Below are positions 1,640 to 3,812 of a stretch of DNA of 26,414 nt, piece by piece. The stretch is from a virus, in IMG/VR virus record IMGVR_UViG_3300046791_000205, positions 1 through 26,414 of that record, one strand, 5' to 3'. The first letter of the stretch is position 1. Every line of letters starts with the position of its first letter. The notes below the pieces were generated by a model. That model did not search any database. It saw only the letters and a program-made list of their open reading frames with translations, and was not told the DNA's origin. Both the position numbers and the translations under genes were made by a program.

Positions 1640-2026
1640 TCATGTCGCGGTTTCACGCCGCTCCGCCTCGACGGCTGCCCGCAGTCGCGTGGTCCGTTCG
1701 CTGGGGGCGATCGCCTCGCACCATCGCACCAGGGCGAGTTCATCATCGAAGTCGTTCAGGACGATTGGCCGGCGTTGGATCAGTTCGAAATACAGGGCGC
1801 TCCGACACTGTTCTGCCAGTTCGTGGTCATCGGTGCCGATCTTGAACTGGTCGATGCGGATCTCGCCATCATCACCCCTGCCGCAACAAACGAAGTACCA
1901 GTGGCGTCCATCCTTGCCGGGTTGGGTTCCCCAGAGGACGGGTCCGATCGCGAGCATTGGGGGCTGGTCCGCGCCCGCGAGGGCGTTGTCGGCGAAGGCG
2001 ATGATGGCGTCGTGGATGGTGGCCAT
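1640..2026 (-). CDS. Hypothetical protein, 128 aa, end of the leftward operon
   Basis: A soluble mixed alpha/beta protein of unknown function. The centre (ALAGADQPPMLAIGPVLWG, then HWYFVCCG) looks like a small beta-sheet domain, and the C terminus is helical and charged. The ATG at 2026 has an AGGGAG ribosome site 7-10 bases upstream, so the start is well supported. The gene lies downstream of the ATTTTGTCCG repeat cluster and is the last - strand gene before convergent + strand genes. It may be co-transcribed with the ATPase gene or driven from within the repeat cluster. Confidence 0.65.
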   Translation of the reverse strand: MATIHDAIIAFADNALAGADQPPMLAIGPVLWGTQPGKDGRHWYFVCCGRGDDGEIRIDQFKIGTDDHELAEQCRSALYFELIQRRPIVLNDFDDELALVRWCEAIAPSERTTRLRAAVEAERRETAT

Positions 2027-2057: not shown

Positions 2058-2227
2058 CGGACAGAATTGAATTTTGTCCGTTTGCTATTTTGTCCGCTAA
2101 GCGCCGGCCAGCCGTTGGAATGGTCCGGACAAAATAGGGGGGGGTTCGGACATAATACGTAGTATTATGTCCGCCCCCATTTTGTCCGGCCATGACGGCC
2201 GGACTGAATTTTGTCCGATTTTGTCCG
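2058..2227. repeat. ATTTTGTCCG repeat cluster with nested palindromes: candidate replication origin or operator cluster
   Basis: The decamer ATTTTGTCCG occurs exactly at 2071-2080, 2087-2096, 2179-2188, 2208-2217 and 2218-2227, and inverted at 2126-2135. CGGACAGAATT (2058-2068) mirrors 2070-2080 with one mismatch. A perfect 12-bp inverted repeat (CGGACATAATAC 2147-2158, GTATTATGTCCG 2162-2173, 3-base spacer) is nested inside the outer inverted pair 2126-2135 / 2179-2188. GTCCGGCC (2184-2191) and GGCCGGAC (2197-2204) form another perfect pair. The last two direct copies abut, one helical turn apart. The cluster lies in the non-coding gap between the RepA-like ATPase gene and the 128-aa gene. 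Iterons beside a replicative ATPase suggest an origin; an operator cluster is the alternative. Confidence 0.75.
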
Positions 2228-2235
2228 GCCTTGGT

Positions 2236-3342
2236 TCATGGCACCGTCACCATGCCATCGGTGGCCATGACGCGGCCTTGGGCGATCAGGTTATCGCGGT
2301 CGCGGCGGAACGATTTTCCTTTGGTATCGGGGGCATCGTCGGGGGCGGTTTCACGGAACACGGCATCCCTCCATCGTCCGACCGGGACGGGTTGGAGGGC
2401 GTTCTCGTTAATGAGCCGGGCGAGGATTTCCAGCACTTTATCGATCCGTTTCGCGTTGGATTTTCGGCCTGCGTTGCTTTTTGGCATAGGCGTATCGTCG
2501 GGTGCGAGCGGGATCAGAACGCAGGAGGTTACCCGTTCGCCACTGGCGTCGATGATGTCGTTGACGACTTCCAGGCGGAACGGGAAGGGTTCGCTGGCGG
2601 CGTCGTCCTTGGCTTCCTCGATGGCCCATGTGTGGGATCCGTCCTCCATCTTCTGGACCATGACCAGGGTATCGGCGGCGCCCATGAGGCTGACGGAGCC
2701 CGCCGGGGAGGTTCCGTTCTTGGTGGTATGGTGAACCAGGGCGACGGCGCATCGTCCGTCAGCGATGGCCTGGGCGGCTCCCACGTAGGCGTTCATGTGC
2801 GAGCTGTCGTTGACGTTGCCGCCGCCGAATGATCGGAACACGGTATCGATGATGACCAGTAGTGGGGCCTGGCCGTAGTGTTGTTCGGTTTCGGTGATGG
2901 CCTGCTGGATATCATCCGGGTTTGGCACCCAGGAGTAGCCGCGTCCGTCGTCGTTACGGATCAACATGGGCCGTCCGGTAGCCAGGGCGAAGTGGATTGG
3001 CACGTTGCCGGCGGCCTGTAGACGTTTCCAGAATCCGCCGTGTCCCTCGCACGCGACGTAGAGCACCGGGCCGTGTTGCAGGATGCGTTGTCCCATCCAG
3101 TAATCGACGTTTGGGTCGGCGACCGCGAGCGCGGCGGAGGTGACGAGGAACGATTTTCCGCTTTTCGGTAGTCCGTAGAACAGCGTGATGGAGCCTTTGT
3201 GGAACAGGCCTCGGACGACGGTTGTCTGATCCGGTGACGGGATCGCCGCGTCGGCGCCGAACGCGAGCGTGAGCCTGACCGGCGTCCGTTTCGAGGCTTT
3301 GTCCCCGGCGATGCCGTAGGCTCTGTCTGAATAGAGATCCAC
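2236..3342 (-). CDS. RepA-like AAA ATPase (AAA_25 family), probable replicative helicase
   Basis: A RecA-fold ATPase of the RepA / AAA_25 type found in phages and plasmids, expected to act as a hexameric replicative helicase or helicase-like ATPase. Numbered from a GTG at 3372, the Walker A motif is GLPKSGKS at 67-74, the Walker B LLVIIDTV at 171-178, and the ALVHHTTK segment at 211-218 matches the family's sensor region. A basic linker and a small winged-helix-like C-terminal domain (about 310-378) follow. I prefer the GTG at 3342, which lies 10 bases after a strong GGAGGG site. The upstream GTG at 3372 has no ribosome site and would overlap the previous gene by 25 bases. The adjoining iteron cluster fits a role in replication initiation. 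Confidence 0.85.
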   Translation of the reverse strand: MDLYSDRAYGIAGDKASKRTPVRLTLAFGADAAIPSPDQTTVVRGLFHKGSITLFYGLPKSGKSFLVTSAALAVADPNVDYWMGQRILQHGPVLYVACEGHGGFWKRLQAAGNVPIHFALATGRPMLIRNDDGRGYSWVPNPDDIQQAITETEQHYGQAPLLVIIDTVFRSFGGGNVNDSSHMNAYVGAAQAIADGRCAVALVHHTTKNGTSPAGSVSLMGAADTLVMVQKMEDGSHTWAIEEAKDDAASEPFPFRLEVVNDIIDASGERVTSCVLIPLAPDDTPMPKSNAGRKSNAKRIDKVLEILARLINENALQPVPVGRWRDAVFRETAPDDAPDTKGKSFRRDRDNLIAQGRVMATDGMVTVP

Positions 3343-3347
3343 GGCAT

Positions 3348-3812
3348 TCAGGCCCTCCTTTTTGCGCGCCACAGCGCGATGTTATAGGCGGCGTCGATCA
3401 TCTCTGGCGGCGCGTTTGCCGCTCGGGCGATATCGGCCGCGGCGAGGGCCGCGGCGAGGGCGGCGGCCACGTGGTCGTCTGGATCGATGGCGAGTCGGCG
3501 GGTCGCGGCCTCGATCATGTCCTGTCGGACTGCGTGATAGTGCCAGTCGAGGGCGGTGATTTCGTCGTCCAGCATGGCGGCGGCGAGTTCGCGGCAGCTG
3601 ACCAGACGTATACCGGCGCGTTGCGCGTGTCCGGCCAGCGTGGCGGCCAGTTCGGCGTGCGCGTCATCGAGGCCGTAGATGTTCCAGGCGATGGCGATGG
3701 CGAGCCGTTTGGCGTCGTGCGCGCCCCATTGGCGCAGCGCGGCGGCCTCGGCCCGGTGCGGCGTGAACAGCGGGGCGCTGCTCATGACGCGATGGGCGGC
3801 TGATATGAGCAC
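3348..3812 (-). CDS. Hypothetical protein, 154 aa
   Basis: An alanine-rich, mostly helical protein of unknown function. It has three or four amphipathic helices and several histidines and acidic residues but no clear catalytic signature. The GTG at 3812 is chosen because GGGGAGAGG lies directly upstream. An ATG at 3785 lacks a ribosome site. Its stop lies among the ribosome site and start codons of the ATPase gene, so the two are likely coupled. Position between RecT and the ATPase implies a replication or recombination accessory role, by context only. Confidence 0.65.
   Translation of the reverse strand: MLISAAHRVMSSAPLFTPHRAEAAALRQWGAHDAKRLAIAIAWNIYGLDDAHAELAATLAGHAQRAGIRLVSCRELAAAMLDDEITALDWHYHAVRQDMIEAATRRLAIDPDDHVAAALAAALAAADIARAANAPPEMIDAAYNIALWRAKRRA

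Follow-up and report, generated by a model that had tools for sequence, protein, structure and literature searches.

A candidate phage replication origin with lineage-specific iterons directly 3′ of an RSF1010 RepA-like helicase gene

Using a 26,414-bp linear virus contig from IMG/VR (the whole stretch that we analyzed, referred to here as the window), which encodes a P22-like coat gene (PF11651) and a RecT gene, we infer that the 170-bp repeat cluster located at positions 2058-2227 is a phage replication origin, and that its iterons are the sites for a winged helix (wH) in the adjoining RepA-like helicase. We put the probability of this reading at about 0.86. Our computational analysis demonstrates the iteron array itself, its position, its conservation, the presence of lineage-specific repeat words, the covariation of these words with the wH, and the exchange of the two as a cassette. 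The steps that we only infer are physical binding, melting, origin activity and priming, and there is no binding or replication experiment for the AAA_25-wH family. The first-pass annotation of this DNA had offered either an origin or an operator for an unknown protein, and comparison supports the former, in that the array stays with the ATPase gene, its word covaries with the wH, and its layout is like that of the PICI and SaPI elements.

An ordered iteron array beside a helicase gene

The gene next to the cluster (2236..3372, minus strand) encodes a 378-aa protein that we propose to be a self-loading initiator. This protein is a member of AAA_25 (PF13481; E=2.5e-27, 96.2 bits against a cut-off of 27) with a Walker A motif, GLPKSGKS, and its AF2 model (mean pLDDT 76; built on 37 sequences from the window and the loci) shows a RecA-type core whose top fold match in the PDB is RSF1010 RepA (1nlf/1olo/1g8y; TM (target) 0.70). 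The sequence profile of the ATPase also matches RSF1010 RepA (1g8y, E=3.6e-15), and hexamer formation and DNA unwinding would be expected by analogy. We found no primase domain in the 378-aa protein, only the RecA-fold AAA_25. The C-terminal domain (aa 301-378; 2239..2472, minus strand), our proposed iteron reader, is predicted to fold as H-H-H-strand-strand at a pLDDT of about 80-93, i.e., as a wH, with the recognition helix placed at aa 348-364 (2281..2331, minus strand) by the model and by covariation. This domain matched no Pfam family, and a search of PDB sequences with a wH profile gave no significant match, so the wH assignment rests on predicted secondary structure and the model. Fold prediction from the single sequence was poor outside the C-terminal domain, and its PDB matches were meaningless.

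The array starts 8 bp past the ATPase stop, i.e., 3′ (downstream) of the gene, and since the gene reads on the minus strand, the natural reading of the repeated word is CGGACAAAAT. On the plus strand this is ATTTTGTCCG, of which the cluster contains six exact copies, five direct (2071, 2087, 2179, 2208 and 2218, plus strand) and one inverted (2126, minus strand), as claimed earlier, together with three copies with one mismatch, at 2058 (minus), 2147 (minus) and 2164 (plus). When one mismatch is allowed, the window contains 11 matches, whereas shuffled sequence averages 1.65, and 0 of 100 dinucleotide shuffles reach 11, in agreement with the view that the order is beyond chance. A search of the whole 26,414-bp record found no exact copy outside the cluster, so the word is not common elsewhere. 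The gap, previously given as 170 bases, is 209 bp when measured from the ATPase stop (2236) to the next ORF start (2026).

Read in the orientation of the gene, the array begins with the iteron at 2218..2227 (plus strand), 8 bp beyond the stop, and continues with an abutting copy at 2208..2217 (plus strand), which confirms the 10-bp step noted in the first pass. The second of these two iterons pairs with a damaged inverted iteron at 2200..2209 (minus strand), a tenth copy that is intact in the close relative L007, the window being without 5 bp there. An iteron at 2179..2188 (plus strand) is then followed by GGGGG on the gene strand. At the center is a 27-bp AT-rich palindrome (2147..2173), CGGACATAATAC-N3-GTATTATGTCCG, which consists of two inverted variant iterons and which we propose as the site of melting or nucleation. 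Its arms are perfect over 12 bp (CGGACATAATAC at 2147-2158, GTATTATGTCCG at 2162-2173; 0/50 shuffles), 14 of its inner 19 bp are A+T, and it is flanked by an outer inverted pair (2125-2143/2171-2189) that is 89% complementary, so that the inverted repeats are nested as first described. Beyond the palindrome come CCCCCCCC and an inverted iteron that lies after a C8 tract (2126..2135, minus strand), an iteron at 2087..2096 (plus strand), and a 23-bp iteron pair in inverted orientation (2058..2080, in which 2071-2080 is exact and 2058-2067 has one mismatch). This order shows two similar iteron sets (2179-2227 and 2058-2135) on either side of the AT-rich palindrome, and the whole (2058..2227) is the origin that we propose from counts, shuffles and relatives. 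Two features count against this reading: the window array does not contain the CCC-TATA-GGG hairpin common in relatives, and its G5 and C8 tracts are in the opposite order. A GC-skew switch is not clearly visible at the cluster either, but in a linear fragment of 26 kb its absence says little.

Conservation of the array and covariation of its word

An exact-pattern scan of IMG/VR for the palindrome core identified only L007 and a second relative, L008, which suggested that the array was a private feature, an idea overturned by a wider, protein-based search. The ATPase of L007 is 99% identical to that of the window and is followed by the same array. The ATPase of L008 is 89% identical, with an array in the same place and a conserved palindrome core; its copies read GGGACAAAA where the window has CGGACAAAA, and the gene after the array is unrelated to the next gene of the window. 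The persistence of the L008 array beside an unrelated gene indicates that the array travels with the ATPase, and that the word can change in all copies together.

For the wider search, homologs at 24-35% identity were taken from phages, plasmids and genomes; the first profile scan of genome contigs gave no match, and a later profile gave 44 loci. The resulting 70 ATPase loci, nearly all of them homologs, are from phages, prophages, plasmids and satellites of alpha-, beta- and gammaproteobacteria, and include one PICI control with a non-AAA_25 initiator (L077). At least five copies of one 7-mer are present within about 350 bp of the gene 3′ end in 53 of the 70 loci, versus 4 of 1,037 background windows; because several loci are closely related, these 53 cases are not all independent. 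Conservation beside the ATPase, which the first-pass annotation had proposed as a check, is therefore seen in most relatives, including very distant homologs, with different words, and neither of the two refuting conditions that it named and that we could examine by sequence, repeats spread over the genome and loss in relatives, is fulfilled. In most of the homologs at 24-35% identity an array of another 7-mer, in both orientations, lies directly 3′ of the ATPase gene, and the arrays of distant relatives were matched by 0/200 or 0/100 shuffles, with the exception of L032 (CGTCACA; 1/100). For example, we identified CGTGACA in Rhizobium phage 16-3, CGGGACA in a Xanthobacter plasmid and Azospirillum, CGCAACA in a Methylobacterium phage-plasmid, GTATAAA in Roseobacter phage CRP-831, AGGAACA in Sinorhizobium, CGTCACA, CGTTCCC and CGTTACC in Rhodobacterales, TGCGGAA and GCGGAAG in Sphingomonadales, CGGTACA and TGGTTCA in Idiomarinaceae and Alteromonas phages, GATTGTC or GAAGTCT in beta- and gammaproteobacterial elements, AAGTGGG in E. 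coli, and CGCGACA in Halomonas. Many arrays also contain a GC-armed palindrome with a TATA, TTAA or TTTA center. The helicase ORF of Paracoccus-type relatives is extended at its 3′ end and contains the array there, just after the wH part; in 12 such prophages (L038, L040, L041, L043-L045, L047-L051 and L069), the array is translated as a tail at the C-terminus of the protein.

Strong arrays are missing from about a quarter of the loci, which counts against the origin reading. No array was found at the locus in BFK20, Baee, Mae-JY30, Caulobacter GB2A or Polaromonas, and L030, L031 and L042 have only weak GGACA-type sites and a hairpin. In a Vibrio phage (L078), a PAPS-reductase-like gene separates the helicase gene from the downstream array, which consists of four copies of TCGGACA and a CCCCCCCTATATATAGGGGG hairpin (3311-3669). 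As an out-of-sample check we added six further homologs, and five of them have strong arrays. One of these homologs, RHph_X2_25, has a helix that matches that of phage 16-3 and shares its word in 16 copies; in the sixth, Methylobacterium FF17, no more than GGACA-like sites can be seen.

Two observations concern the mobility and make-up of individual loci. Helicase-array segments with GATTGTC are closely similar in eight loci (L053, L054, L056, L057, L059, L061, L065 and L068), with Azospira, Azonexus, Thauera, Luteimonas, Lysobacter, Xanthomonas and Stenotrophomonas as hosts, which suggests that this segment may be a mobile element spread between genera. In E. coli satellites and prophages (L021, L074-L076 and L077), the first 120 or so initiator residues are common (1,864 E. 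coli records match), and behind this common part is either an AAA_25 helicase or a P4/DUF927-type one, i.e., judged by sequence, this locus holds modular initiators.

For 29 loci whose C-terminal domains are of one type, we compared word similarity with helix and ATPase-core identity. The word correlates with the recognition helix at r=0.76 and with the ATPase at r=0.24; the partial Mantel correlation of word and helix given the ATPase is 0.753, which 0 of 5,000 permutations reach (largest 0.407), while that for the ATPase given the helix is -0.17. Analysis of the Rhodobacterales alone (n=19) gave a partial r of 0.861 (0/5,000). Among pairs matched for ATPase conservation (0.70 and 0.68), the identity of the helices is 0.73 if they share a word and 0.31 if they do not. 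Computationally, this is an unusually clear sign that reader and sites covary. In these tests ATPase similarity stands in for ancestry, and shared ancestry is not fully removed. The window, with the word CGGACA and the helix DTKGKSFRRDRDNL, shares word and helix style with the Paracoccus prophages L051, L038 and L045 (helices QTKGRTFRRHRDAL, in L051, and DTKARTFRRHRDAL), the ATPases of which are only 28-29% identical to that of the window. In the beta- and gammaproteobacterial elements, where the pattern is like that of the phage swap described below, two types of C-terminal domain pair with two words, GATTGTC and GAAGTCT. The columns of the helix that are most tied to the word include those of K353, R356, D358 and D360 (window numbering), a list that is only a lead given many columns and few classes. 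At aa 352, G or A occurs with CGGACA (window, L051, L038, L040 and L045) and R with GGGACA (L008, L014 and L019); L030, which has R yet GGACA sites, is an exception that counts against the origin reading.

A natural swap is present in two Roseobacter phages, CRP-831 (L016, 5074-5240) and CRP-823 (L081, 1950-2150). Over the 240 aa compared, their ATPase parts are 97-100% identical, versus 65-75% for the C-terminal domain, and every iteron differs, GTATAAA in CRP-831 and CTACAAA in CRP-823, with the hairpin core ACCCTTTAGGGT kept and the flanking DNA near-identical again. As far as a comparison of sequences can establish, this computation demonstrates that the wH end and the iteron word were exchanged as a cassette between two near-identical phages.

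Comparison with known systems and alternative explanations

Classical iteron plasmids (P1/F/R6K type) contain iterons of about 17-22 bp read by a non-helicase Rep, whereas the window has a 10-bp word and a helicase as its candidate reader. Lambda O-type origins contain iterons within the initiator gene. The window does not share this layout, its iterons being outside the ORF; the Paracoccus-type relatives do, as does L024, whose own helicase gene carries ACGTTCA seven times (1250-1650), ahead of the part that encodes the ATPase and not 3′ of the gene.

The closest parallels that we compared are the rep-ori segments of SaPIs and PICIs (SaPIbov1, SaPI1, EfCIV583 and EcCICFT073), where, as proposed for the window, the origin is directly 3′ of the initiator-helicase gene (PMC6092414, PMC7581432), two iteron sets with element-specific words surround an AT-rich stretch, the DNA-binding domain is C-terminal (predicted in the window, with binding inferred), and self-loading is proposed. 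The rep-ori segment of EcCICFT073, the PICI of E. coli CFT073, maintains a plasmid and needs its ori for maintenance; this ori comes directly after rep, on its 3′ side, and has an AT-rich region between two iteron sets (PMC6092414). As a positive control, our array detector picks up this ori (AGGTAGA, six copies). SaPI Rep and SCCmec Cch2 are helicases of the self-loading type that bind iterons just 3′ of their own genes, and the C-terminal domain of Cch2 suffices for binding (PMC7581432). In E. coli, the neighborhood of the array-bearing AAA_25 rep in L021 and L074 matches that of the CFT073 PICI (Icd-like, DUF4222, rep, gap, hypothetical, SSB). The window differs in that its helicase is AAA_25 (RSF1010 RepA-like), not DUF927/P4-type as in the characterized SaPI/SCC and CFT073 elements, in that its iterons have 6-8 bp cores with GC tracts, and in that its carrier is a tailed phage with a P22 coat, not a satellite, i.e., it has a PICI-like module without being a PICI.

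Other systems share single features. The RSF1010/IncQ oriV (RepA, RepB′, RepC) has the same hexameric helicase fold and origin iterons with hairpins, but these are read by a separate RepC (PMC4234260), whereas in the window the wH is fused to the helicase. P4 alpha is also a helicase with a C-terminal winged helix that reads short repeats (PMC4234260), but is a Toprim and SF3 helicase protein, in contrast to the RecA-fold helicase of the window, which has no fused primase. In pRN1 (ORF904) and phage BIP-1, a stem-loop cis element is located just 3′ of a helicase gene with a wH end; here the helicase is SF3, and there is only a large stem-loop, with no iterons reported and specific binding not seen (PMC4234260). 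In the Vibrio cholerae PLE, the DNA-binding domain of RepA and the iterons covary and have repeatedly been swapped together, with only cognate pairs replicating; unlike the window protein, this RepA is a RepA_N initiator and not a helicase, its binding domain is N-terminal, its iterons are about 30 bp, and the end of its gene that encodes DNA binding does not directly adjoin the origin (PMC8263062). It is by analogy with the SaPI/PICI, SCCmec, pRN1/BIP-1 and PLE systems that we read the window array as an origin recognized by the tail of the helicase itself.

The alternative that survives best, although we consider it unlikely, is an operator cluster through which a phage repressor, or the ATPase acting as a regulator only, controls the 128-aa gene (2026..1640) or the replication operon. 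The palindromic sites look operator-like, an ORF on the same strand comes after the cluster, and a related block, CTGTCCGC-ATTTTGTC-GTTGA-CTGTCCGC (672-700), which is conserved in L007, overlaps the promoter-like TTGACT/TATGGT that lies before ORF 744. However, the region 1900-2320 gave no sigma-70-like promoter, some relatives have a convergent next gene, with the array between convergent genes in two of them (L014 and L028), and it is with the helicase's own wH that the word covaries. We rejected an operator as the main function, since the array survives replacement of the next gene by an unrelated one in L008; the operator option of the first-pass annotation is thus disfavored, although regulation driven by the initiator could coexist with origin function. 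The block at 672-700 itself holds GCGGACA twice and is fully conserved at L007 9589-9615 though the genes behind it differ, and could possibly be an operator, with the same winged helix or a phage regulator as its reader.

A partition (centromere-like) or packaging site that adjoins the helicase gene by chance is very improbable: iteron-like arrays do also act as parS, including beside a phage repA (PMC7157519), but the word tracks the wH of the helicase and not ParB or terminase, and integrated prophages and satellites, elements that are built very differently, also have arrays. Least credible is that the replication operon is followed by a transcription terminator or an RNA structure, with the repeats a by-product of hairpin maintenance, since, despite strong predicted hairpins and three terminator-like matches, all of these matches are on the plus strand, opposite to the genes, a hairpin needs no direct repeats of one word at many spacings, and the covariation with the protein helix would be unexplained.

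Proposed mechanism and implications

Under the origin reading, the wH of several helicase subunits would dock on the two iteron sets that flank the AT-rich palindrome, and the RecA-type motor domains would close as rings around this palindrome, melt it and load. The helicase would thus load itself without a separate loader of the DnaC/RepC type, and a phage or host primase would then prime. Because the specificity domain is at the C-terminus of the protein and its sites come immediately after the gene, reader and word make up a single cassette; this short piece of DNA could be exchanged in a single recombination, giving each lineage a private origin.

In the open-access literature we found no description of an AAA_25 helicase with such an iteron layout, subscription papers being outside our search. 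We consider it probable, with less confidence than for the window itself, that these loci represent a widespread and apparently undescribed class of mobile-element origin, in which an RSF1010-RepA-type helicase with a fused wH uses short iterons 3′ of its own gene, with cassette exchange and private types, and in which the pairs of helix and word constitute a readable recognition code. Origins are unknown for most phages and, if this is true, a rule would locate the origin in a phage, prophage, phage-plasmid or satellite with an AAA_25-wH helicase. The origin word would be roughly predictable from about 20 residues, and the helix-word code could predict from protein sequence the origin word of a phage and possibly cross-replication or interference. 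The natural matched and mismatched pairs (CRP-831/CRP-823, the window/L008 and GATTGTC/GAAGTCT) are useful for the study of initiator specificity, origin incompatibility and competition between satellites and phages. The exchange of specificity domain and sites together would explain why such origins are located 3′ of the initiator gene, and this class of origin would link the RSF1010 RepA helicases to PICI-style origins.
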